Source of the DNA: Planctomycetes bacterium TMED75
GTDB lineage: Bacteria > Planctomycetota > Phycisphaerae > Phycisphaerales > SM1A02
Direction: 5' to 3'
Length of the DNA stretch: 34,262 nt
Assembly (NCBI GenBank): GCA_002171655.1
Contig: NHEC01000053.1
Location: 1-34,262 of the forward strand
This document shows, piece after piece, positions 146-13,885 of the stretch. Under the pieces are notes generated by a model. That model worked only from the letters and a program-made list of their open reading frames with translations. It ran no database searches and was not told the DNA's origin. The translations under genes were made by a program, and so were the position numbers. How positions within the stretch are numbered: position 1 is the first letter of the stretch; each line of letters begins with the position of its first letter.

Positions 146-1117
146 TCAGGCAAGATCCCGGGTCTTGGTGTGATCGGTCGAGTGCTGGTTCAGGCACCAC
201 CAATCGAGGCCCTCTTCGAAAATGTTGAGGCAGGCCTCCAGATGCGATCGCCCTCCCTCACTGGCCAGAAACGAGGGTGTGGTGGCCGCCAGGAGCAGTC
301 GACGGGCCATCGCCAGCTCCTGAACCCGATCCCCATTCTCGCATCCCAACGCGGTTCGAGCGGCTTGCATGATTTCCAGAGGCTTTTCGGATTCGAGGCG
401 TTCGGGGTGGGCCCAGTACAACCGTTCCAGGTACAGGGCATCCTCAAGCCAGTGCCCGGGCCGAATCTCCCCGAGGTCGACCAGGCAGACCGACCCATCG
501 GCTCGGTGCATCGCATTGCCCAGGTGCAGGTCGCCATGAATCCATCCGATCGGCTGACGGGAGCGCCAGAGGGCGATGATCTGTTCCCAGTGCGGTCGGG
601 CACGATTGAGTTGCTCAAGCCAGCGCGTGTGGTCTGGAAGGACGTTGTCACGGAGTGCCTGGTGCGTTCGTTGCAACCACAGTTCCCAGTTGTTGCGTCG
701 CTTGGGACGGTCGATGGGAACGGTCTGTGCACAGTGCTGCAGGCGTGCGCCGGCTTCTGCGGTTTGACGAAGGTTGCCAGACACCCACTGCGCCCCCAGA
801 GGCATGCCCGGCAGGCGCTCCATGATCAGCCAGGCGATGTCGTGGCCACCCAGCGACTCGCCGCTTTCGAGCAGTCGGGGAATGACCGGCGGACTGCCAC
901 AGTCCTGCAGCCGACGGAACCATCGCAGTTCGCGACCGGGCACCGGAAACTTGATGAACACATCCACTTCGCGATTGCGCTGGTTGCGGTAACTCGTCAC
1001 CCCGGTCAGTGCGCCCCCGTGCTGCCAGTCCATCCGCACCCAGCGAATCTCGCTCAGTCGACGTGCACAGGCTTCGTGCAGATCCGGTTCCAGCGAACGA
1101 GCCATTGAATCAAGCAT
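146..1117 (-). CDS. APH-family (aminoglycoside/choline kinase fold) phosphotransferase
   Basis: This 323-residue protein has the kinase fold of the APH/choline kinase superfamily. A candidate ATP-anchoring lysine sits in VFIKF (about residue 56), a hinge-like IMERLPG at 98-104, the Brenner-type catalytic loop HGDLHLGN at 194-201 and the metal-binding Asp in VDLGE at about 214. The substrate cannot be told from sequence: family members phosphorylate antibiotics, sugars, choline or lipopolysaccharide. It is cytoplasmic, with no signal peptide. The ATG at 1117 is preferred because TACCCT lies exactly six bases upstream, an arrangement seen at other starts here that would give a leaderless mRNA. 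A weaker in-frame ATG lies at 1105. Resistance should not be inferred from the family alone. Confidence 0.8.
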   Translation of the reverse strand: MLDSMARSLEPDLHEACARRLSEIRWVRMDWQHGGALTGVTSYRNQRNREVDVFIKFPVPGRELRWFRRLQDCGSPPVIPRLLESGESLGGHDIAWLIMERLPGMPLGAQWVSGNLRQTAEAGARLQHCAQTVPIDRPKRRNNWELWLQRTHQALRDNVLPDHTRWLEQLNRARPHWEQIIALWRSRQPIGWIHGDLHLGNAMHRADGSVCLVDLGEIRPGHWLEDALYLERLYWAHPERLESEKPLEIMQAARTALGCENGDRVQELAMARRLLLAATTPSFLASEGGRSHLEACLNIFEEGLDWWCLNQHSTDHTKTRDLA

Positions 1118-1200: not shown

Positions 1201-2049
1201 ATGCGTCCCAGTGTGATCGTGAGTGATCTTGATGGAACTTTGCTTGGTCCCGGCGGAGCGTTGTCCGATGGAACCCTGGCGGCGGTCAGCGAGCTTGCAG
1301 CACACGGAATCCCCTTCATTTTAGCCACGGGTCGGTCATTTTACGAGTGCAAGTTCGTACTTGACGCGATTCCATGCTGTCAGGAGATGATCGGAGCGGC
1401 GGGTGCATTGCTGTCTGATGCCCGAAGCGGACAAACTCTTGCCAGAGATGCGCTTCCAAATGAACTCGTGGTTCGAGTGACCGAATTCATTCTGGCTGAA
1501 GGGCACCTCGCGCAGTTGTTGCAGGATCGTTCCTGCGTGGAGTACGACTATCTGCTGGTGGGAAGAGGCGCTCTGCACCCCACGATGGACTGGTGGCTGG
1601 ATCTGCATGAGCTCAACTCCCATCGAGTCCCCTCACTGGAGGGACTCGACCTCTCCCACACCATTCGCATCGGTGTGGTCGGTGGTCCCGGTGAACTCGA
1701 GGCCCTTACCCAGCGCATCGAGACGGCGTTCGGTGAAGAACTGGTGATTCGACATTGGGAAGCAGTCTCCGAGACCGAAAGCCAACCAACCTATCTGCTC
1801 GAACTCTTCAACCGCGGGGTCGACAAGTGGGGCATGATCGAACACGTGCTCGAACGGGATGGACTGGACCCGGAACGGGTGGTGACCATTGGGGACGGCC
1901 TCAACGACATCCAGATGCTTGACCGGGCTCCTCTGGGAATCGCCATGGGCCAGGCTCGCACGTCGGTCCAGGCGGTGGCGAATCAGGTGGTTGGAAGCAA
2001 TCGAGAGGATGGATTCGCCCAGGCGATCCGTACCCTGCTCCGGTCCTGA
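1201..2049 (+). CDS. Cof-type HAD-superfamily sugar-phosphate phosphatase
   Basis: A 282-residue hydrolase of the haloacid dehalogenase superfamily, Cof (type IIB) subgroup, which dephosphorylates small phosphorylated metabolites through an aspartyl-phosphate. Motif I is DLDGTLL at residues 8-14 with the nucleophile Asp, motif II is ATGR, the cap domain lies in the middle, and GDGLNDIQML near residue 237 supplies the Mg-binding aspartates. Length is typical. The reading frame stays open back to 1009, but that stretch overlaps the divergent kinase and has no family match, so the ATG at 1201 is chosen; it also sits six bases after a TACGCT box. The 3' end overlaps the proposed start of the next gene by 41 bases, so the two are probably co-expressed. 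Confidence 0.88.
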   Translation: MRPSVIVSDLDGTLLGPGGALSDGTLAAVSELAAHGIPFILATGRSFYECKFVLDAIPCCQEMIGAAGALLSDARSGQTLARDALPNELVVRVTEFILAEGHLAQLLQDRSCVEYDYLLVGRGALHPTMDWWLDLHELNSHRVPSLEGLDLSHTIRIGVVGGPGELEALTQRIETAFGEELVIRHWEAVSETESQPTYLLELFNRGVDKWGMIEHVLERDGLDPERVVTIGDGLNDIQMLDRAPLGIAMGQARTSVQAVANQVVGSNREDGFAQAIRTLLRS

Positions 2050-5000
2050 TACGATCTGGTTGGTGCCTGCAGGAGAACAGCCAAGTTCCTCGATCGCTCG
2101 CTCCGTGCTCGAACGCGCGGAAGGTGATGTTCTGGTGTCGGCGCTCGAAGCCCTGCTCAAGGGAGTGCTCGAATCGGAAGTACCGCTGCATTCGATCCTG
2201 GGTCCCAGCCGCGGAGTCTTCAAGCGATTGGGACAGGTCACCTCCGAGGAATCTGCGGAGCGACTCTTCGCAAGCCACGGCTGCCGGCTTGAGATCGTTG
2301 ACGAACCCGGACGTGCGGTGGAACTGGGAGCACGCACCTGTCTTTCCGGGCGCAACGTCATGCTCATGCTGCCCGCGGGCGACATTCTTCGCTCTGCGAA
2401 TGCGTTGGTCCGGGTGCGGGAGCTGCTGTCGGGCACCGAGGGCTTCGGACTGCTGCTGCTCATCGAGGATGACGTGGAGCGACTGGATCGGGCTGCGCCC
2501 ATCCACCTGCTTGATGACCTGGCGATCGCGCGCATCGAACCCAACGACGTTTCCGACCTGCGTGACATGGTCGAACATGGCATCCGTCTTTCCCGGGCAG
2601 GCAATGGTCCCGCCGCGATTCTCGCCTCGAGCAACATCCTTCATGCTCAGGACACGATTCGCCTGCGACCCAACCGTATCGTAGACACCATTGACGTCGC
2701 GGCCGCGATGCGGCGTCGGCGCCGGGTGGGCCGTGGCTACGAGGGGATGGAGTTGCTCCGACTGGCCCGACGTCTTGAACTCAATCATGCCCATGGATTC
2801 CCCAGTCCCGGAGAGCTGGCCCCGCTGGGACTGGTCGCGGTCGGCCCGGCGTACTCCGCCGCCGAATACCTCCTGCGACGATTCGGGCTCGAGGGCCGGG
2901 TGCCTTTGCTGCAGTTGGGAATGTCGAGCCCGCTGGATGAGTCGATCACCGAGCGACTGTTTCTGCGGTGCGAAAACGTGGTGGTCCTGGAGACCCGACC
3001 CGGCGTGGTCGGCCGCGAGCTGGTGGGTGCCGCCGAAGCCGCACGACGCAAGGGAGGAACCGCGGCGTCGGTCTGGTGGCGCAGTTTGCCACCGCAGGAC
3101 GGTCAGGAGATCGCTCTCGATCGCGGGGATGCACTGCGTGCTTCACGGGTGGCCCGCAAGATCTCCCACATGCTGGATGCGGTCTCCACCGGACGCACCG
3201 TGACTCGGGGGCTCGAGCCTTCCGACCGCAAGCTCGAGGAGTTGGAGGTTCCGCCTCGAGGTTCCAGCTCCGGGGTCGAGGGCGCCATACGCACGGTTCG
3301 GAATCTGCTCACGGCCACCAGTCAGTGGCTGAATGAACGCGACGAGGAACCCGACAGTGAACGAGTTGCCCTGCAGTTGGATGATTCGGTGGATCCGTCC
3401 ACCTACGACCGAGTGGTTCAGGCGGAGATCTGGGGTCGACAGCGGTTTCTCGCCGACGGACCGGCGGCAATTCGTGAATGCGCGGTCGATTCACGGCCCA
3501 GGATTCTGGTGATCTGTGACATCGGGGTGCTGTCGGGTATCGATGTGGTGCGTCTGGCCACTGCCAGCGTGCCGGAGGAACAGGGTGAGCGGGTGGCGGT
3601 GCGAAGCACCTCCCTCGACGACTTGGACGCAGTACTCGAACTGCTGCGGGAATCGGTTCTCTCGAACCAGGTCACCGTGCTGGTCGCCCGTGATGGTTCA
3701 CCTCCTCGGTTCGATCGTACCGCGGTCGAACGATCCTTCCGGGAGGTCGATCGTCTGGGCTTCACGCCGATGCAGCGAGTGGTTCGTCCCGCCGATCAGG
3801 CCTGCAGTCTTCGCGCTCCGGTCTTTGCCGACCTCCTGGGGACCGGTCTGGACCGCAACAGCGAGGAGCTGGAGAGTTCCTTCCGTCTGGACACCCTGCC
3901 TCGTCGTCTTGGTCGTGGACTCCTGGTCCGACTGCGTCCTCTGACCGAGCAGGTGGAGGTGGTGCGCACCCAGCCTCCGGTGATTCAGCTGCACGACTCC
4001 GAGGGCAATCGACCGACGCTCCCCACGATCAAGCACTCCAATGCCTCCGTCTGGCGTTGCCACGTGGCCGGCTGGCGGGGGGCGGAACCGGGGTTGGTGC
4101 CTCGAATCATCTCTGAAGCTGGACGTGCGATGGGGTACCGGGTGGGGTGCGTGGTCTCGACCCAGCCCGCGGGACCCGGGCGGGGAGCTTGGGCGCAGTT
4201 GCTGTTCACCCGGCCGCGTACGGGGTCGAGTCCGGCGCTGCCGATTTCCATTCCCTACGGTGAGGCCGACGTGTTGTTGGGCGTTGATCCGGTCGAGACT
4301 CTTCGAGCGATCGGTCCGGACCCCACGCTTCGAGTCGCGGCCGCCGACCGAACCGATGCGGTGGTGAACATCGGACTGCTCACCGACCAGGAGGAGCACG
4401 CCCGAGCTCGACCGCGCGGGACGCGGGAGCTGCTTCAGGAGGGAATCGATCAGCGTTGTCGCGATGAACCCTGGGTCTTCGACTTGGTGGCCCCCGCCCG
4501 CCGGACCCTGCTCACCGAACGACTCATCGACATGATGCTGCTGGGAATCACCTTCCAGCGAGGCTTGATCCCGGTCTCGATCGAGGTGCTCGAACGAGTC
4601 ATCGAACGCACCGAGCGCACGGAGTTCGGACGCTTGCTGGTTGCCTTTCGTCATGGCCGGACCCTGGCCGCTGGGCTTCCCGCGCCTCGTGAGCCGCAGA
4701 TCAACTCTAGTGATGTGGAACCAATGGTTCGTCGATTGGTTCGCGGGGTCCGGATGGACGCCGGTCGACGGCGTTCTCGGGCACTCCGGTTTGAAACGCT
4801 GCTGCGCGATGGAATCAGTCAGATGCCGGGTCTCCTGGAAACCGCGCGCGGACGTCCCGCGGTCGCCGATTACTCCATTGGTCTGCGCCACGCCCTGGTC
4901 TGGGGGGGCTTTCCTCTGGCGGAGCGTTTCTCCGAATTGGTGTGCGGTCTGTACATGGCAGACAGTGGCGCACGATCGCGTCGCATGACCTGCTACGCGA

Positions 5001-5440
5001 TCTTTCCCCTCATCGAAATCCTGCTGCCTCGTGATCCGATCTTCATCGCCTCAATGATCTCGAGCATGGAGCAACGGCTTCGGATCCGTGAGCGTCTTGC
5101 GGTCCGCCACGCCCGGGGCGACCGCATCGAGCGGCGATACCTGACGCGGCTGGAACTCATCTTCGCCCGACGTCGCTTTCGGCTGGATTTCCGAACCAGT
5201 AACTGGGCCGCCTGGTCGCTTCGTGCCCTGGGCATGGTGGTTCCCCACGGGTGGCGCGGCACTGCCCAGGAGCGCGGGCTTGCCCGCGAGATGATCGCGC
5301 TGGTCGAAGAAGCGACGCGTCAGGCCTCGGTGGAGCCGGAACACTGGGAGGCGGTGATGTTGAAGCTGAACATGCAGGCGGAGATGGGACGCCTTCGTTC
5401 GATGCGCCCCGGGGACCTGCGCAAGCTCATCGCTCAGTGA
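2009..5440 (+). CDS. Divergent indolepyruvate:ferredoxin oxidoreductase-like protein (2-oxoacid oxidoreductase family), probably without cofactors
   Basis: This 1143-residue protein follows the domain order of the fused aerobic-type indolepyruvate ferredoxin oxidoreductases. A pyrimidine-binding-like domain lies at about 20-240 (LGARTCLSGRNVML matches the conserved GaSlaG region). A transketolase-C-like domain lies at about 270-345 (LGMSSPLDESITERLF, VVVLETRPGVVGREL). A shrunken thiamine-diphosphate region lies at about 475-565, a gamma-type domain at about 683-885 (YGEADVLLGVDPVETLR, LLGITFQRGLIPVSIEVLER), and a C-terminal region resembling DUF6537 follows. The usual cofactor signatures are absent: no CPGCPH, no GDSTFFHSG-type TPP motif, no ferredoxin CxxCxxC clusters, and the gamma GxGGxG reads AGWRGAE. 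Catalytic activity is therefore doubtful. The start is uncertain: ATG 2009 overlaps the HAD gene by 41 bases, while GTG 2063 would avoid overlap. The 3' end overlaps rlmN, on the opposite strand, by 14 bases. Confidence 0.75.
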   Translation: MDSPRRSVPCSGPDTIWLVPAGEQPSSSIARSVLERAEGDVLVSALEALLKGVLESEVPLHSILGPSRGVFKRLGQVTSEESAERLFASHGCRLEIVDEPGRAVELGARTCLSGRNVMLMLPAGDILRSANALVRVRELLSGTEGFGLLLLIEDDVERLDRAAPIHLLDDLAIARIEPNDVSDLRDMVEHGIRLSRAGNGPAAILASSNILHAQDTIRLRPNRIVDTIDVAAAMRRRRRVGRGYEGMELLRLARRLELNHAHGFPSPGELAPLGLVAVGPAYSAAEYLLRRFGLEGRVPLLQLGMSSPLDESITERLFLRCENVVVLETRPGVVGRELVGAAEAARRKGGTAASVWWRSLPPQDGQEIALDRGDALRASRVARKISHMLDAVSTGRTVTRGLEPSDRKLEELEVPPRGSSSGVEGAIRTVRNLLTATSQWLNERDEEPDSERVALQLDDSVDPSTYDRVVQAEIWGRQRFLADGPAAIRECAVDSRPRILVICDIGVLSGIDVVRLATASVPEEQGERVAVRSTSLDDLDAVLELLRESVLSNQVTVLVARDGSPPRFDRTAVERSFREVDRLGFTPMQRVVRPADQACSLRAPVFADLLGTGLDRNSEELESSFRLDTLPRRLGRGLLVRLRPLTEQVEVVRTQPPVIQLHDSEGNRPTLPTIKHSNASVWRCHVAGWRGAEPGLVPRIISEAGRAMGYRVGCVVSTQPAGPGRGAWAQLLFTRPRTGSSPALPISIPYGEADVLLGVDPVETLRAIGPDPTLRVAAADRTDAVVNIGLLTDQEEHARARPRGTRELLQEGIDQRCRDEPWVFDLVAPARRTLLTERLIDMMLLGITFQRGLIPVSIEVLERVIERTERTEFGRLLVAFRHGRTLAAGLPAPREPQINSSDVEPMVRRLVRGVRMDAGRRRSRALRFETLLRDGISQMPGLLETARGRPAVADYSIGLRHALVWGGFPLAERFSELVCGLYMADSGARSRRMTCYAIFPLIEILLPRDPIFIASMISSMEQRLRIRERLAVRHARGDRIERRYLTRLELIFARRRFRLDFRTSNWAAWSLRALGMVVPHGWRGTAQERGLAREMIALVEEATRQASVEPEHWEAVMLKLNMQAEMGRLRSMRPGDLRKLIAQ

Positions 5441-6536
5441 CGGGGGAGCTGGGGTCCTGTCGTTGCTTGTGGCGCAGCTGCCCGCAGGCGGCATCGATGT
5501 CTCGGCCCCGACTGGCGCGGATGTGCACGTTGACACCCTGTTCCCGAAGCAACGCCTGGAATCGGTGCACGTCCGAGGACACCGGACGTCGGAAGGGCAG
5601 TCCCTCGACCTCGTTGTATCGGATGAGGTTCACGTTGGCTCGCAGACTGCCGGCCACGCCCGCCAGTTCCCGGGCGTGTTCGGCCTGGTCGTTGAAGGAG
5701 CCCAGCAGAATGTATTCCAACGTGATTTCTCGTCCGGTCGCCTTGAAGTAGCTCGAACAGGCGTCGAGTATCTCCTTGATCGTGGCGTGCTGCGCCCAGG
5801 GAATGATCTCTCTTCGGAGTTCGTCATTGGGTGCGTGGAGGCTCAAGGCAAGCGTCACCGGAAGTTCGAATTCCGCCAGGCGACGGATGGCCGCCGGCAG
5901 GCCGACGGTCGAGACCGTGATCCGGCGCGCACCGATGCCCAGACCCCAGGGCGCATTGAGGGTTCGAATCGCGCCGATCACGTTCCCGTAGTTGGCCAGA
6001 GGTTCGCCCATTCCCATGAAGACGACGTTGCTGATGCGCTCGACTCCCGGCAGTCTTCCCAGCCGCCACGCCTGCTCGACGATCTTGCCCCGGGTGAGGT
6101 TGCCCTCCAGTCCGCCGAGTCCCGAGGCGCAGAACCGGCAGCCCACCGGACACCCGACCTGGGATGAGATGCAGGCGGTCTTTCGATCCTCGGTGGGGAT
6201 CATGACGCATTCGGTCTCTTTTCGAGAGGGGGGTGCCAGCAGTCGCAGGGAGGAGGGCTCGTCCCCCGGGTCCTGGTCCGGCTTCCAACCCAGCAGCAGC
6301 TTGCGGGTGCCATCACTGGCCGATTGGCTGGTGAGTTCTTCCGCGTGCTCGAATTGCAGGAGGGCGGCGAGTCGGGTTCGATCCCCGCGCGAAAGATCGG
6401 TCATCTTCTCCAGGTCGATCTCACCCCGCTGATAGACCCAGCGCAGGAGTTGATCCGCGACGAAGGTGCGAAATCCGTGTTCCTGCATGAATGCAACAAG
6501 CTGGTCGCGATCGAGATCGAAGAAATGCGTGCTCAC
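5427..6536 (-). CDS. rlmN: Dual-specificity 23S rRNA/tRNA adenine-C2 methyltransferase RlmN
   Basis: A 369-residue radical-SAM enzyme that methylates C2 of adenine 2503 in 23S rRNA and of A37 in some tRNAs. The radical-SAM cluster is Cys129-x3-Cys133-x2-Cys136 in GCPVGCRFCASG. The two methyl-transfer cysteines are present at 122 (TACISSQ) and about 351 (RDIDAACGQL). GMGEPLANY is the SAM-binding GxGEP element. Length is normal. Its ATG overlaps the stop of ispH as ATGA, so translation is likely coupled and the pair forms an operon. The 3' end overlaps the convergent oxidoreductase-like gene by 14 bases. Confidence 0.96.
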   Translation of the reverse strand: MSTHFFDLDRDQLVAFMQEHGFRTFVADQLLRWVYQRGEIDLEKMTDLSRGDRTRLAALLQFEHAEELTSQSASDGTRKLLLGWKPDQDPGDEPSSLRLLAPPSRKETECVMIPTEDRKTACISSQVGCPVGCRFCASGLGGLEGNLTRGKIVEQAWRLGRLPGVERISNVVFMGMGEPLANYGNVIGAIRTLNAPWGLGIGARRITVSTVGLPAAIRRLAEFELPVTLALSLHAPNDELRREIIPWAQHATIKEILDACSSYFKATGREITLEYILLGSFNDQAEHARELAGVAGSLRANVNLIRYNEVEGLPFRRPVSSDVHRFQALLREQGVNVHIRASRGRDIDAACGQLRHKQRQDPSSPVTER

Positions 6537-7645: not shown

Positions 7646-8605
7646 ATGACCTCTTCTCCCGTGCCAATTCGCGATCAAGTCCGCCTCTGGGGCCCTGAAT
7701 CAGACGTCCGACTGGATGAGCGGGAGTCGATTGCATACTGCCGTGCCCTCGCAGGAGGGCATTACGAGAATTTTTCGGTCCTGAGTTCCCTGGTTCCCAG
7801 TTCCTTGCGGGATGACTTTGCAGCGGTCTACGGGTTCTGCCGTTGGTCGGACGACCTCGCCGACGAGATCGGTGATCGCAACGAGTCGCGTGCCCTGCTT
7901 CAGTGGTGGCGACGTGAGCTCGACGATTGCATCGATGGGCATCCCCGCCATCCGGTGATGTGCGCTCTTTCGGCCACGATCCAGCGCCACGACCTACCCG
8001 CCCGTCCGTTCCATGATCTGATTGATGCCTTCGACCAGGACCAGGAGTTCACTCGATACCAGACCTGGGATCAGCTGCTTCATTATTGTGCGCGCAGTGC
8101 CAATCCGGTGGGTCGACTGGTCCTCATGCTCCTGGGGGAGCCTCGAGACGACGCTCGCTTTCTGCCTTCGGATCTGATCTGCACCGCGCTGCAACTGACC
8201 AATCACTGGCAGGATGTGTCGCGTGACATTCTCGAGCGTGATCGAGTCTACATTCCCTCCGAGATGGTGGAGATCGAGAACTTCGAGCAGCGATTGCGGG
8301 ATTCCGCTTCCCAGGGATACTCGGTCGACGAGCCCTTTCTGGAAGACAGCCGGCAAGTCATCCGGGCCTGCGTGGATCGGACCGAAGCGATGTTCGAGAA
8401 CGGTCGAGTGCTGCTGGACCGGATCAAACCCCAATCGCGTCCGGTCATCCGGTTGTTCATCGACGGCGGGAGCCACGTGCTCAACCTCGTGCGTCACTGG
8501 AACTATGAGACTGCAATCCACCGGCCCCGCCTCTCCAGGCTTGTGAAGCTCGGACTGGTCGCACGTGCCTGGACCGCCGCTCGACTGACGGGACGGGAGC
8601 GCTGA
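7646..8605 (+). CDS. hpnC: Squalene synthesis protein HpnC (hydroxysqualene synthase)
   Basis: HpnC belongs to the trans-isoprenyl diphosphate (squalene/phytoene) synthase family and converts presqualene diphosphate to hydroxysqualene in the HpnC-HpnD-HpnE route. The first Asp-rich motif is SDDLADE at about residues 68-74. The second is QDVSRDILERDRVYIP at about 189-204. Both bind the Mg-diphosphate. At 319 residues it is slightly longer than usual, mainly by a polar N-terminus. It is the first of four overlapping genes and is assigned HpnC rather than HpnD by order and by similarity. The product is a soluble or membrane-associated helical protein without a signal peptide. Confidence 0.9.
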   Translation: MTSSPVPIRDQVRLWGPESDVRLDERESIAYCRALAGGHYENFSVLSSLVPSSLRDDFAAVYGFCRWSDDLADEIGDRNESRALLQWWRRELDDCIDGHPRHPVMCALSATIQRHDLPARPFHDLIDAFDQDQEFTRYQTWDQLLHYCARSANPVGRLVLMLLGEPRDDARFLPSDLICTALQLTNHWQDVSRDILERDRVYIPSEMVEIENFEQRLRDSASQGYSVDEPFLEDSRQVIRACVDRTEAMFENGRVLLDRIKPQSRPVIRLFIDGGSHVLNLVRHWNYETAIHRPRLSRLVKLGLVARAWTAARLTGRER

Positions 8606-9552
8606 TGGCCAAGCTGGATTCCACCCTCGTTCCTGTCGCTCTGCCTCTGGAACAGGCCTTCGTTCGCTGCAGCGAGGATGTGCGTTCCCGTGCCCGAAAC
8701 TTCTGGTACGGGCTGAGACTGCTTCCTCCTGAACAGTTCATGGCCCTCTGTGCGATCTACTCCTGGATGCGGTTGGCCGATGACCTGGCCGATGCCGAGG
8801 ACGGTGGGGCACCTGCGGATCGCCATTCCGCACTGGAAGGCTTCCGAGACCGGACCCTCGAACTCTTTCGCGGGCAAACGCCCGAGGTCGTTCTCGCTCC
8901 CGAAGCCCACATCTTTCCCGCGCTGCGCAGCGTGCTCGACCAGCATGAACTCGACCCGGTGGATTTCACGCTGATGATCGATGGCCAGTTCGCGGATCTT
9001 CAGCCGCGCACGCTCCAGACGCGTGCGCAACTGCTTGAGTACTGCGATCAGGTGGCTTCCACCGTCGGACGTGTCTGCGTTCGAATCTGGGGAGGAACCA
9101 GTGAGGAATGTCTTCGACTGGCGACCGAACGAGGGAAGGCGCTTCAACTGACGAATATCCTCCGCGACGTTCGGGAAGACGATCAGCTTCAGCGTCAGTA
9201 TCTTCCAGAAGAGGAATTCGCGGCGGCAGACCTCTCCCGGAAATCGCTCGTGCGATGGGAGCATTCCGAGGCCTGTCGTGCATTCATGCTCCAGCAGATT
9301 GCGGCCGCCGAGCAGCACTACCGCGCGGCCGAAGGGCTCGAGTCCATGATTGAACCCGCCAGCCGACCCACCTGTTGGGCGATGACGCGGATCTACCACG
9401 CCTTGCTGATGAAGATGCGACGTCGTCCCGAGTTGATCGCGGGAACAACCCGAATCCGCCTGAGTTCGCTGCGTAAGTTGTCCATCGGCATGCGCGCTCG
9501 TCGACTGGCTCGGCGACACGGTCTCAACACCCCCCCGGGGGGTGCGACGTGA
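8605..9552 (+). CDS. hpnD: Presqualene diphosphate synthase HpnD
   Basis: HpnD condenses two farnesyl diphosphates into presqualene diphosphate, the first step of squalene formation. The two Asp-rich motifs of the squalene/phytoene synthase family are visible: RLADDLADAED at about 56-66 and NILRDVREDDQLQRQYLP at about 184-201. The ATG shares one base with the hpnC stop (TGATG), which indicates translational coupling. Length (315 residues) is a little above the family norm. The last codons contain a C7G6 run at 9530-9542 that encodes the PPGGAT tail and lies just before the hpnE start. Confidence 0.92.
   Translation: MAKLDSTLVPVALPLEQAFVRCSEDVRSRARNFWYGLRLLPPEQFMALCAIYSWMRLADDLADAEDGGAPADRHSALEGFRDRTLELFRGQTPEVVLAPEAHIFPALRSVLDQHELDPVDFTLMIDGQFADLQPRTLQTRAQLLEYCDQVASTVGRVCVRIWGGTSEECLRLATERGKALQLTNILRDVREDDQLQRQYLPEEEFAAADLSRKSLVRWEHSEACRAFMLQQIAAAEQHYRAAEGLESMIEPASRPTCWAMTRIYHALLMKMRRRPELIAGTTRIRLSSLRKLSIGMRARRLARRHGLNTPPGGAT
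9530..9542. repeat. C7G6 homopolymer run at the hpnD-hpnE junction
   Basis: Seven cytosines are followed directly by six guanines, ending six bases before the hpnE GTG. The sequence is self-complementary over 12 bases. It lies inside the last codons of hpnD, and its G-run could double as the ribosome-binding purine tract of hpnE. A length change would alter only the hpnD tail and the overlap with hpnE. Confidence 0.8.
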
Positions 9553-10931
9553 AGCGGCGGGTCGTCATCCTCGGTGGTGGTCTCGCGGGCATGGCGGCCG
9601 CGCTGCGGGTTCTCGATGCCGGGGATCAGCCGGTCCTCCTGGAGACTCGTGCTCAGCTGGGGGGTCGTGCCACCAGTTTTCAGGATCCCCGCAGCGGTGA
9701 ACTCATCGACAACTGCCAGCACGTGGTGATGGGCTGCTGCACGAATCTCCTGGACTTCTACGAGCGACTGGGCGTGGGCGACCTCATCGAGTGGCACACT
9801 GAAACCTACTGGGCGAATCCCCCGCACGAGCCCGACGTGATGCGGCCGGGCTTCGGGCCAGCTCCGGGACACTTCACCTTCAGCTTCGCTCGGATGTCGT
9901 TTCTCAGTTGGGCAAGCAAGCGCGCAATCGCGCGCGCGATGTTCAAGATGATCCGCATGGGCCTGGCGGGTCGTGCCGGTTGGTCGGATCGCACGTTCAT
10001 GGAATTCCTCGAGGAGACTTCCCAGCCCCCCGAAGCGATCGATCGCTTCTGGCGGGTGGTGGTGGTCAGTGCCTGCAACCTCGACCTGGACGAGGTGGGG
10101 GCGGCGTTCGCACTGCAAGTCTTTCAGGAAGGGTTTCTCGCCCACCGATTCGCCTCGGCGATGGGTCTCGCCCGGGTGCCGCTTTCGCAACTCTACGATC
10201 CCTTCGTCGAGTACTTCCGGCGCGAGGGCGGACAGCTGGAACTCAACACCGCGGCACTCAGCATCGGCTTCGATGGTCGACGGGTCACCGGAGTGGTCAC
10301 CAAGAACGGCATGGTCGAGGGTTCGGCGGTGATCGCCGCGGTTCCCTTCGAACGACTGGCACGGCTCTGTTCGGACACCCTCGTTTCTGCGGATGCCCGC
10401 CTCCAGCAACTCGATCAACTGGAGGTCAGTCCGATTCTCGGAGTGCACCTCTTCTTTGACACCGAGGTGATGACCCTGCCGCACCTGGTGCTTCCCGGGC
10501 GCTCGACCCACTGGTTGTTCAACAAGGGAACTGATGCGCAAGGGAAGCAGCATCTGCACGCGGTAATCAGCGGTGCGGATGAGTGGATGGGGCTGGATCA
10601 GACGCAAATTCTCCAGCGGGTCCTCGAGGACCTGGTGTGGGCACTGCCCGCGGCGCGTGGCCTCGATCCGATCGGCCACCGAGCGATCAAGGAGAAGAGA
10701 GCGACCTTTCGGGCGGTGGCCGGGGTGGATCGACATCGGCCCGCCGTGACCCCGGGGCTCGGGGTTGAGAACCTGATGATCGCCGGGGACTGGTGTGATA
10801 CCGGCTGGCCCGCGACCATGGAGGGTGCGGTGCGCAGCGGGTACGCCGCGGCCGCCGCGGCCAGTGGGGGGTCGGGTGAGGTTGCCGACTTGCCGGGTTC
10901 ACCGGTCGGTCGTCTGCTGGGTCTGCGATGA
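9549..10931 (+). CDS. hpnE: Hydroxysqualene dehydroxylase HpnE
   Basis: HpnE is an FAD-dependent amine-oxidase-fold enzyme that reduces hydroxysqualene to squalene, completing the three-step route. The N-terminal Rossmann motif is VVILGGGLAGMAAALRV, followed by the acidic ribose-binding residue in LLETRAQLGGRAT. The C-terminal FAD motif NLMIAGDWCDTGWPATMEGA is typical of squalene and carotenoid desaturase relatives. It has 460 residues, normal for the family. The GTG start overlaps the hpnD stop by four bases (GTGA), and the stop overlaps the queG start (ATGA). The product feeds hopanoids, sterols or C30 carotenoids, but no gene for a later step is in the window. Confidence 0.92.
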   Translation: MKRRVVILGGGLAGMAAALRVLDAGDQPVLLETRAQLGGRATSFQDPRSGELIDNCQHVVMGCCTNLLDFYERLGVGDLIEWHTETYWANPPHEPDVMRPGFGPAPGHFTFSFARMSFLSWASKRAIARAMFKMIRMGLAGRAGWSDRTFMEFLEETSQPPEAIDRFWRVVVVSACNLDLDEVGAAFALQVFQEGFLAHRFASAMGLARVPLSQLYDPFVEYFRREGGQLELNTAALSIGFDGRRVTGVVTKNGMVEGSAVIAAVPFERLARLCSDTLVSADARLQQLDQLEVSPILGVHLFFDTEVMTLPHLVLPGRSTHWLFNKGTDAQGKQHLHAVISGADEWMGLDQTQILQRVLEDLVWALPAARGLDPIGHRAIKEKRATFRAVAGVDRHRPAVTPGLGVENLMIAGDWCDTGWPATMEGAVRSGYAAAAAASGGSGEVADLPGSPVGRLLGLR

Positions 10932-12046
10932 ATCAAGCTGACGACAGTCCGCTTCTGGAGGATGGTCTGGATGGACTGGCCTCACCGGAGCGGACCGCAC
11001 GGGTGCTCGACGCAGCGTCGGCCCTGGGGTTCGCCCACATGGGGGTCTGTTCTGCTCGGCCGGTCGAACGCCGGGAGGTGCTTGAAAAGTGGATTGCCGA
11101 GGGCCGACATGGCCAGATGCACTACCTGGCGGACCGCATCGAGGCGATGCTCGATCCCGAGTCAGTCCTTGAAGGGGCGCGGTCGGTGCTCTGTGTTGCG
11201 GATCGATACCACGCGGGAGCCGATCCCCCCGAAGACAGCGTGCCTCGAGGTCGCATCGCTCGCTACGCACGGGGCCGTGATTACCACGATGTCTTTCGCC
11301 GGCGGTTGCGACGCCTCGCGGAGGCGATCGAACGGGCCGCGCCGGGGCAACGGGCACGCGGAGTCGTCGACACCGCGCCCCTGATGGAACGCGAGCATGC
11401 CCAGCGTGCGGGACTGGGACTCATCGGCAAGCACACTCTGCTGATTCGACCCGGTGAAGGGTCGTGGATCCTGCTTGGCGAGGTCCTCACCACCCTGGAA
11501 CTCGAGGCCACCGCACCTCCCGACTGGGCAACGCGTTCGGATCCTTGTGGAAGCTGCACGCGCTGCATCGATGCCTGCCCGACCGGAGCCATCGAGCCGT
11601 TCAGTGTCGACGCCACTCGCTGCATCAGCTACACCACCATCGAGCATCGGGGCCCCATCGAACCCGAACTCCTGGAGCCCACGGGTGACTGGCTGTATGG
11701 GTGTGACGTCTGCCAGGAGGTCTGTCCGCACAACGGGCCGGACCGTCGCGTCGCGCGCCTGCCGGTGCTCGAGGTGTACCAACCCCGTCGCAGTGGATTT
11801 GATCTCCTGGAGGTGCTCGGCTGGCGGGAGTCGGATCGACGCGAAGCATTCACGACCAGCGCCCTGAAGCGTGCGAAGCTTGCGATGTTCAAGCGCAACG
11901 CTCTCGTCTGTGCGGGGAACCTGCTCCGTGAAGAGGACCATCCCGTTCTGCTGGCTCGGATTCGCGAACTCTCGACCGACCGCTCGGAGGACCTGCTGGT
12001 CCGCACGACCGCTCTCCAGGTGCTCGAGCAGCTGGAGCAGTCGTGA
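10928..12046 (+). CDS. queG: Epoxyqueuosine reductase QueG
   Basis: QueG performs the last step of queuosine synthesis on tRNA, reducing epoxyqueuosine with cobalamin and two [4Fe-4S] clusters. The ferredoxin-like cysteine motifs are CGSCTRCIDACPTGAI (from about residue 207) and CDVCQEVCPHN (from about residue 259). The cobalamin-binding domain precedes them, and a short helical-repeat tail follows. Length (372 residues) is typical. It overlaps hpnE by four bases, so it is co-transcribed with the squalene genes although there is no metabolic link. The next gene is convergent and starts 21 bases after the stop. Confidence 0.95.
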   Translation: MNQADDSPLLEDGLDGLASPERTARVLDAASALGFAHMGVCSARPVERREVLEKWIAEGRHGQMHYLADRIEAMLDPESVLEGARSVLCVADRYHAGADPPEDSVPRGRIARYARGRDYHDVFRRRLRRLAEAIERAAPGQRARGVVDTAPLMEREHAQRAGLGLIGKHTLLIRPGEGSWILLGEVLTTLELEATAPPDWATRSDPCGSCTRCIDACPTGAIEPFSVDATRCISYTTIEHRGPIEPELLEPTGDWLYGCDVCQEVCPHNGPDRRVARLPVLEVYQPRRSGFDLLEVLGWRESDRREAFTTSALKRAKLAMFKRNALVCAGNLLREEDHPVLLARIRELSTDRSEDLLVRTTALQVLEQLEQS

Positions 12047-12067
12047 AGTCTCACCCTCAGCTGGGGG

Positions 12068-13885
12068 TCAGTTGCGCCCGCGCCCACGACCGCCGCTGCG
12101 GTTGGATTCGGAATTTTCCATCAGCTCGACGAGCTTGTTGACGTCGATGTACCACTTGCCGCCAACCTTCATCAGCGGCATTTGGGTCGCACCGGGCACG
12201 TCGATCATCGCGGTGTCCCCGCGTTCACTCACCACGCGTGCTGGTCCCGCCGCGCCAGTGCCGCCACGCATCGCTTGTTGCTGAAGGCCTTGCAACTTTG
12301 GCAAGGCCGAGGCATCGCTGATGTACATCATGCCGAGCATCTGCTGCATCATCTCCATGCCACCGGGACCGGCATCCCGCATCGAGTTGAGGAAGTCGCA
12401 GATCGCCTGGGGCGAACTCATGCCGTTGGTGGCGAAGGGAGGCATGTTCGCGCCACCACTGGGCGGGGCGGGGGCGTTGGCTGGCGCGCCCGCTGTCGCG
12501 GCGGAAGCGGTGCCACTGGCCATCGCGGCCGGGGCCGTGTTGTTGCTGGCAGGTGGGGCGATTCGAACTCCGTCGAGCGCCTTGATCAGACTTTCCACCG
12601 CAGTTTGCCCGGCTTCATTGCCGTTGATCATGGTGAGTTTTTCAAGTGCGGTCTCGTAAGCACTGCGCGCTTCGGCGATGGATGCTTCCGCGGCCGTGGA
12701 CGCTTCGGTGGCCAGATTGGTCCATTCCGAGGCGTCGACCCCGGTGATCGAGCTGGTGTTGGCCAGAGCGGTGTAGAGACGGGCGTCCTCGAGATCGGAG
12801 GAGGCTTGGATCGCGTGGAGTTCGCCCATCAGGGTGCTGGCATCCGCCGCAATCTGACGTTCCCCCTTGCTGGAACCTGAGCGCTGAGCCTGGTTGAGGT
12901 TGCGCAATGCGGTTTCCATGAGTGGTTCGATCTGTTCGGACTGCATCGTGCCGTAGGTCTGAAGCAACGTCTTGAGTTCCTGAACCTGGGTCTGGGCTCG
13001 CTCTCGACCCATCTGGCCAGCGGCAAGCACGGCGGCCCTGATCGATTCGATGTTGCCTTCGGCGCGGTGGGTGGCGTCGATGAGTGCCTGGGAGTTTTCT
13101 TCCATCGTCCTCTTGCGGGCGAGTTCCGGCTGCAGTCCGGCAAGCTGAATCTCCGCTTCGGCGATGGTGGTCTTGATCGGGATCATCTTCGCACGGATCT
13201 GGGAGGATTCCTCCACCAACGGGTAGCCGTCGATGGCACTGACGTTGTTGGCCTGACGGGAAAGCTGCGCGGAGTCGGTGGTCATCTGATCCAGTTGCTG
13301 ATTGTTTCGATCGCGTTGCTGGCTGACCTGAGTGATCTGTTCTTCGAGCCGCGAGTTCTCACCGCGGATCTGCTGGTGGGGCTGCTGAAAGCCCGCACGG
13401 GTCTGGTTGACTTCGCTGTTGGGAGTGCTGAAGTCCGAAGCCATGCGGACTTGTGCACCGGCGGCAATGATCATGGCCGCATCGGCCTTCAGAGCGATTC
13501 TGGCTCGCATGGCGCGCAGGTCGAGGTCCATGCTGATCAATGACATCGCCTGGAGCTTCCCGCTGGTGGCGGCGATGCTTGCGGCGAGTTTCGTGGCCAC
13601 CTGCTTCTGCTTGCTGGAGGTGCCCTTGATCGATTGCAGACTCCTTCCGAGTTGATCCAACTTGTTCGCAACGGTCAGCGGATCGGAATCCACCCCGACT
13701 CCCGAAATCAACGTTCGGTACTGATCCCCGGCCTCATCGATCTCCGCCTGAGCCTGCGTCTGTTCCTCAAGCTGGGCGTCTCCGAGACAACCGGCAAGAA
13801 CGCAGGTGCCTCCGGCAAGGGCGAGGATGCCAAGTCGTCGTGCGAAGGCATTGACTGCTCTGGATGCTTGGACGGGTCTGCTCAT
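12068..13885 (-). CDS. Coiled-coil lipoprotein with a C-terminal NTF2-like segment, function unknown
   Basis: The N-terminus carries a lipoprotein signal: basic residues, a hydrophobic stretch and the lipobox LAGC, with the lipidated Cys at 33. Residues about 35-400 are rich in Ala, Gln, Glu and Arg with long heptad-like stretches, suggesting extended coiled coils. A Pro/Ala/Gly linker follows at about 435-475. The last 110 residues contain MPLMKVGGKWYIDV, like the end of NTF2/DUF4878-type domains, and the protein finishes in an RGGRGRGR-like basic tail. It would sit on the periplasmic side of a membrane. I recognise no family for the whole protein. The ATG at 13885 is the only sensible start because the signal follows it directly. 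Confidence 0.8.
   Translation of the reverse strand: MSRPVQASRAVNAFARRLGILALAGGTCVLAGCLGDAQLEEQTQAQAEIDEAGDQYRTLISGVGVDSDPLTVANKLDQLGRSLQSIKGTSSKQKQVATKLAASIAATSGKLQAMSLISMDLDLRAMRARIALKADAAMIIAAGAQVRMASDFSTPNSEVNQTRAGFQQPHQQIRGENSRLEEQITQVSQQRDRNNQQLDQMTTDSAQLSRQANNVSAIDGYPLVEESSQIRAKMIPIKTTIAEAEIQLAGLQPELARKRTMEENSQALIDATHRAEGNIESIRAAVLAAGQMGRERAQTQVQELKTLLQTYGTMQSEQIEPLMETALRNLNQAQRSGSSKGERQIAADASTLMGELHAIQASSDLEDARLYTALANTSSITGVDASEWTNLATEASTAAEASIAEARSAYETALEKLTMINGNEAGQTAVESLIKALDGVRIAPPASNNTAPAAMASGTASAATAGAPANAPAPPSGGANMPPFATNGMSSPQAICDFLNSMRDAGPGGMEMMQQMLGMMYISDASALPKLQGLQQQAMRGGTGAAGPARVVSERGDTAMIDVPGATQMPLMKVGGKWYIDVNKLVELMENSESNRSGGRGRGRN

Follow-up and report, generated by a model that had tools for sequence, protein, structure and literature searches.

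The window, meaning the whole 34,262-nucleotide stretch analysed here (contig NHEC01000053.1 of Planctomycetes bacterium TMED75), contains on its forward strand a frame that is open from 2009 to 5440 and translates into 1143 residues. The start codon is most likely the GTG at 2063, since the closest orthologue carries the same GTG with a TGA in frame directly upstream of it; the protein would then have 1125 amino acids up to the stop at 5440. Residues are numbered here from the ATG at 2009 (residue 1), though the GTG is the more likely start. The upstream HAD gene stops at 2049 and the GTG comes 13 bases later, so that the two genes would have no translational overlap. The overlap with a HAD phosphatase given in the first-pass annotation was rejected for this reason, as the start codon moves past the end of the HAD gene. 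At its 3′ end, the gene shares 14 bases with the convergent RlmN gene. The features of the locus are collected in Table 1.

Table 1. Features of the motif-less gene, its domains and its immediate neighbours (window coordinates)
Feature	Position	Strand	Basis
Motif-less single-chain IOR homologue, 1125 aa	2063..5440	+	Open frame, conserved start, 1084-column profile homology
Pyr (POR_N-like) domain, residues 19-225; lacks the substrate loop and the TPP-activating Glu	2063..2683	+	Alignment
Alpha-II domain, residues 226-400; 21 family columns conserved at >=90%	2684..3208	+	NCBIfam match, alignment
Former TPP (PP) domain, residues 401-590; deletions, without cofactor residues	3209..3778	+	Alignment
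Former ferredoxin-like Fe-S segment, residues 591-660; single remaining cysteine C599	3779..3988	+	Alignment
Gamma (POR-like) domain, residues 661-890; most strongly conserved part	3989..4678	+	NCBIfam match, alignment
GWRGAE replacing GxGGxG in the gamma domain	4070-4087	+	Alignment
DUF6537-like C-terminal domain, residues 891-1143	4679..5437	+	Pfam in 7/22 relatives, alignment
HAD hydrolase (Hydrolase_3/Cof type), upstream, co-directional, no overlap	1201..2049	+	Pfam; neighbour in most family loci
APH-type phosphotransferase, divergent, conserved neighbour	146..1117	-	Pfam
RlmN-like gene, convergent, conserved neighbour	5427..6536	-	Named from sequence

Profile comparison shows that the encoded protein is homologous along its whole chain to the single-chain indolepyruvate:ferredoxin oxidoreductases (IORs) of the 2-oxoacid:ferredoxin oxidoreductase (OFOR) type. 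In what follows, f1 is the taxonomic family of the window, f2 to f6 denote further families of its order and g174 is one genus of f6. Aligned by hhalign, a family profile of 22 orthologues from f1 (A3) matches motif-complete relatives (A1) with a probability of 100% and an E-value of 1e-105 over 1084 columns, in agreement with the full domain order of a fused enzyme that had been read from the sequence at first. The closest named record, the Phycisphaerae MAG L001, is 77% identical along the whole length. NCBIfam models recognize the window protein itself (PRK13030, 1.7e-16, residues 747-890; IOR_alpha, 2.2e-4, residues 176-342), and PRK13030 is matched by all 22 aligned f1 members, at best with 2.1e-24. 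The PRK13030 score of the window protein is 59 bits (59.2) against a curated cut-off of 816; this cut-off alone is not decisive, motif-complete relatives of the class likewise falling under it (492 bits). A Pfam search of the window protein gave no match, including to POR gamma (PF01558) and DUF6537 (PF20169). Among the 22 relatives two match PF01558, whose cut-off some orthologues exceed, and seven match DUF6537 (best 7.1e-7). The single window sequence found nothing in the PDB, the family profile reached E-values of only 0.1-0.35 there, and no match to the window protein turned up among plasmids. The structure predicted from a two-sequence input has a mean pLDDT of 31, and no structural claim is based on it.

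With PRK13030 (NF009589) and PRK13029 (NF009588) the window protein has in common the order of Pyr, alpha-II, TPP domain, Fe-S segment, gamma and DUF6537; it differs from them in the absence of the TPP, substrate and Fe-S residues and in the partial deletion of the TPP domain. Its Pyr and alpha-II domains are homologous to those of solved OFORs by way of the motif-complete relatives, which match 1yd7, the alpha subunit of a Pyrococcus-type 2-keto acid:ferredoxin oxidoreductase, at E 6.9e-8. In OFORs of known structure, substrate binding falls to the YPITP loop and TPP activation to a Glu; Mg2+ is held by GDG together with an Asn, and the proximal cluster by CXGC (PMC5020499). Unlike OFOR1/2 of Sulfolobus tokodaii (PMC5020499), the window protein is devoid of YPITP, the activating Glu, GDG, Asn and CXGC.

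Alignment with motif-complete relatives locates these changes. The substrate loop GYPGSP has become GPSRGV (residues 65-70), and the TPP-activating Glu of ANNEAL aligns to Pro100. Nothing remains of the proximal-cluster CPGCPH, which is deleted, or of HGDTGC; GRQRFLADG (residues 476-484) stands in place of GDGTFFHSG, and most of the DNKTTAMTG loop has been deleted. Among the ferredoxin-type cysteines a single column keeps its Cys (C599), and in the gamma domain GVGGMG reads GWRGAE (residues 688-693). The first-pass annotation, which had described CPGCPH, the TPP GD/FHSG motif, the ferredoxin cysteine clusters and GxGGxG as absent or changed, is borne out at each of these sites. Its estimate of a TPP region reduced to about 90 residues holds for the first half of the domain (409-496, versus 407-526 in the motif-complete L040); the second half, of about 94 residues, is retained. 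Intact TPP-binding residues, had they been present, would have spoken against the loss, and at the sequence level the profile alignment of the window's family places none. The invariant residues of the enzyme were taken from 16 motif-complete proteins that span three phyla, four of the proteins belonging to other phyla. Of these residues the window protein retains 6/34 in the TPP domain, where 11 others lie in deletions, and 2/14 in the Fe-S segment, compared with 15/27 in gamma (Fisher p=0.0007 for gamma versus TPP plus Fe-S); the figures are 6/13 for alpha-II, 7/25 for Pyr and 4/11 for DUF6537.

The loss is shared by orthologues and is not that of a lone degraded copy. Among f1 genomes of at least 85% completeness, to which the window's own genome at 79% was added, searching with the A3 profile found the motif-less gene in 98 of 99, nearly always as one long open frame; split or short copies sit on short contigs or at contig ends. 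Forty-one full-length f1 sequences were read, and none shows cofactor motifs at the aligned sites; the sampled f1 genomes contain no motif-complete single-chain copy. In f4 the motif-less gene is present in the six genomes sampled, and all six copies were read. In g174 (L120-L123) the motifs are gone while the length of the TPP domain is kept. Three other f6 copies are partly eroded, namely L117 (CSGCPH, FHGG), L119 (CAGCPQ, GQG for GDG) and L033 (GDAAYFHTG), with all their ferredoxin cysteines intact; from their motifs, they may possibly be intermediates. One f1 genome, G012, has beside the motif-less gene a second, distant IOR-like frame with GDSTFFHSG and a CxxCxxC cluster (L128, 4075-7569, forward strand).

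The first-pass annotation had proposed that orthologues be examined for purifying selection and for conserved residues at the former cofactor sites. Selection on the gene is purifying, at a level similar to that on its housekeeping neighbours. Between the window and L001, dN/dS is 0.136 for the whole gene; taken segment by segment it stays within 0.12-0.15 in all five, the former TPP region among them (approximate values, dS being above 1); the neighbours give, also approximately, 0.11 for IspH, 0.17 for RlmN, 0.20 for the kinase and 0.21 for the HAD gene. In the 41 f1 sequences, gamma has 40 columns conserved at 90% or more, 29 in common with motif-complete relatives and 11 new, followed by alpha-II (21), DUF6537 (20) and Pyr (11). 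Such columns are rare at the former cofactor sites, with five in the 190-residue former TPP region and two in the former Fe-S segment. The new family-specific residues comprise the 11 of gamma (e.g. R690, E752, R831, R838 and D841) and six in alpha-II. As most conserved columns lie in gamma and alpha-II, the retained function is most likely located in this core.

Motif-complete single-chain enzymes occur in f5, in most f6 copies read and in one f2 genome. Outside the order, TPP and Fe-S motifs are complete in L040 (f7) and in 18 of 18 further loci from eight families of the class, one of which (L158) does not show the GxGGxG pattern. In a tree rooted on the class-level copies, all motif-less forms are nested inside the motif-complete clade of the order. 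Given these relatives and this nesting, motif completeness is, on the sequences compared, the ancestral state. It may have been lost once or several times. Free trees group f1, f4 and g174 (SH-aLRT 99), long branches being involved; an AU test does not reject the placement of g174 with the motif-complete group (p=0.59), which has a slightly higher likelihood. All four g174 loci and most motif-complete f6 copies adjoin the same divergent beta-ketoacyl synthase, and this common locus fits a separate loss in place, without proving it. A bolder reading, which we regard as doubtful, is that a second, non-catalytic role already exists in the motif-complete IOR of Phycisphaerales and preserved the protein while catalysis was lost more than once in the order. 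The losses might then be counted, with the same reserve, as one in f1 and f4, one in g174 at the beta-ketoacyl synthase locus, and the partial erosion of L117, L119 and L033. If true, nature would here have turned a single large metabolic enzyme into a pseudoenzyme repeatedly.

The order of genes in most f1 loci is APH kinase (reverse strand), HAD (forward), motif-less gene (forward), RlmN (reverse), IspH (reverse) and two squalene/phytoene-synthase-like genes (forward); the HAD gene is absent from some of them. Kinase and HAD were named by Pfam, and RlmN, IspH and the synthase-like genes from sequence. In the window, two adjoining squalene/phytoene-synthase-like genes and a phytoene-desaturase-like gene beside IspH (7646-10931, forward strand) are reminiscent, by sequence naming, of hopanoid HpnC/D/E. 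In the f4 locus, the motif-less gene lies between a small gene without Pfam match and a Rho-like gene. In g174 it lies directly upstream of a single gene fusing E1-alpha, E1-beta, a lipoyl domain and a FabH-type ketoacyl synthase III (8764-12222, forward strand, in L120; also in L121-L123). Comparable E1-FabH fusions are seen elsewhere in f6, and some of the genera concerned have no IOR homologue at all. A divergent beta-ketoacyl synthase is found in more than 20 loci (L132, 3153-4355, reverse strand, and equivalents), beside the motif-complete IOR of f6, one f5 and one f2 genome and beside the motif-less copies of g174; this neighbour suggests a possible link of the IOR locus to lipid synthesis.

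E1_dh genes are present in all sampled f1, f4 and g174 genomes. The f5 genomes with the motif-complete enzyme have zero to two, mostly weak, and motif-complete f6 genomes often have them. A rule by which a genome would have either the motif-complete enzyme or an E1 dehydrogenase, never both, was dropped on account of these f6 genomes. It is plausible that E1-type dehydrogenases have taken over the catalytic role, an association confounded with phylogeny.

By the definition according to which pseudoenzymes are recognized, through sequence analysis, by the absence of the conserved catalytic motifs of their enzyme family (PMC10211241), the window protein resembles pseudoenzymes in general: its catalytic motifs are missing, and its gene is intact and under selection. 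We infer that it would no longer carry out oxidative decarboxylation or electron transfer; a small probability stays with an unusual TPP site. That the protein is dead as an OFOR and nevertheless functional is highly probable. The favoured explanation, held with moderate confidence, is that of a lineage-wide pseudoenzyme derived from an OFOR, which would have lost its cofactor sites and been kept for a binding or scaffold role. The reading as a retained pseudoenzyme, suggested in the first-pass annotation, gains support from the lineage-wide loss, the intact frames and the purifying selection. The ancestor would be the single-chain indolepyruvate-type enzyme found throughout the class, turned pseudoenzyme by the loss of its TPP and substrate residues and of those for every Fe-S cluster. 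The selected function would most likely be seated in the gamma and alpha-II core, probably a scaffold or small-ligand binder that organizes or regulates another protein, for which a 2-oxo acid, CoA or acyl-CoA would be the obvious leftover ligand. Any specific ligand-binding or scaffold mechanism is put forward tentatively, the odds being somewhat against it. With the GxGGxG loop of gamma changed as well, it is no more than guesswork that this domain still has a site for a nucleotide or CoA.

The conservation of the core could also reflect a neofunctionalized enzyme with new chemistry in the gamma/alpha-II cleft, performed without TPP or Fe-S. The strength of this conservation, the new family-specific residues of both domains and a long stem branch followed by conservation would all be expected of such an enzyme; no known catalytic motif or Pfam match occurs in the window protein, however, and no context gene points to a reaction, which makes this reading rather unlikely. 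Less likely still is a separate partner supplying the TPP chemistry, either an OFOR or an E1-type 2-oxoacid dehydrogenase, an alternative already raised in the first-pass annotation. For an OFOR the proposal finds no support: no other POR or POR_N gene exists in the window's genus or in about half of the sampled f1 genomes, which argues against such a partner and led to its rejection for the window's genus. An E1 partner would agree with the E1_dh genes of all sampled genomes that have the motif-less form and with the adjacent fusion gene of g174, but E1_dh is widespread, also in motif-complete f6 genomes, and in f1 the motif-less gene does not adjoin an E1 gene.

The graded series of f6, from motif-complete through partly eroded (L117, L119, L033) and motif-less (g174) to absence of the gene from several f6 genera carrying the E1-FabH fusion, is what a decaying relic of a redundant enzyme, retained by chance, would leave behind. 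In f1, near-universal retention (98/99 genomes, among them some of about 2 Mb), the intact frames and a dN/dS near 0.14 strongly disfavour a relic, and as a general explanation it is very improbable. An assembly, frameshift or alignment artefact might be suspected from a MAG that is 79% complete and in 125 contigs, but it is refuted by the 77% identical full-length orthologue in another MAG and by full-length orthologues across f1, so that its probability is negligible.

A retained pseudoenzyme, as preferred here, would be unusual in its size of about 1,100 residues, in the loss of several cofactors and in the purifying selection across a whole bacterial family. A literature search, of limited coverage and without most subscription journals, found neither an OFOR-derived pseudoenzyme nor a function for DUF6537. 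Annotation by similarity would wrongly assign indolepyruvate oxidoreductase activity to these planctomycetes. Eroded and motif-complete sister lineages allow comparison, and the series from motif-complete through eroding to motif-less offers a direct route to the part of the fold that holds the retained function. Elsewhere, in f87 and f95, motif-complete IORs carry an extra C-terminal extension (L156, 2511-7331, reverse strand; L157, 5069-10240, forward strand), which, judged by eye, resembles a glutamate-synthase-small-subunit / NAD(P)H oxidoreductase domain.
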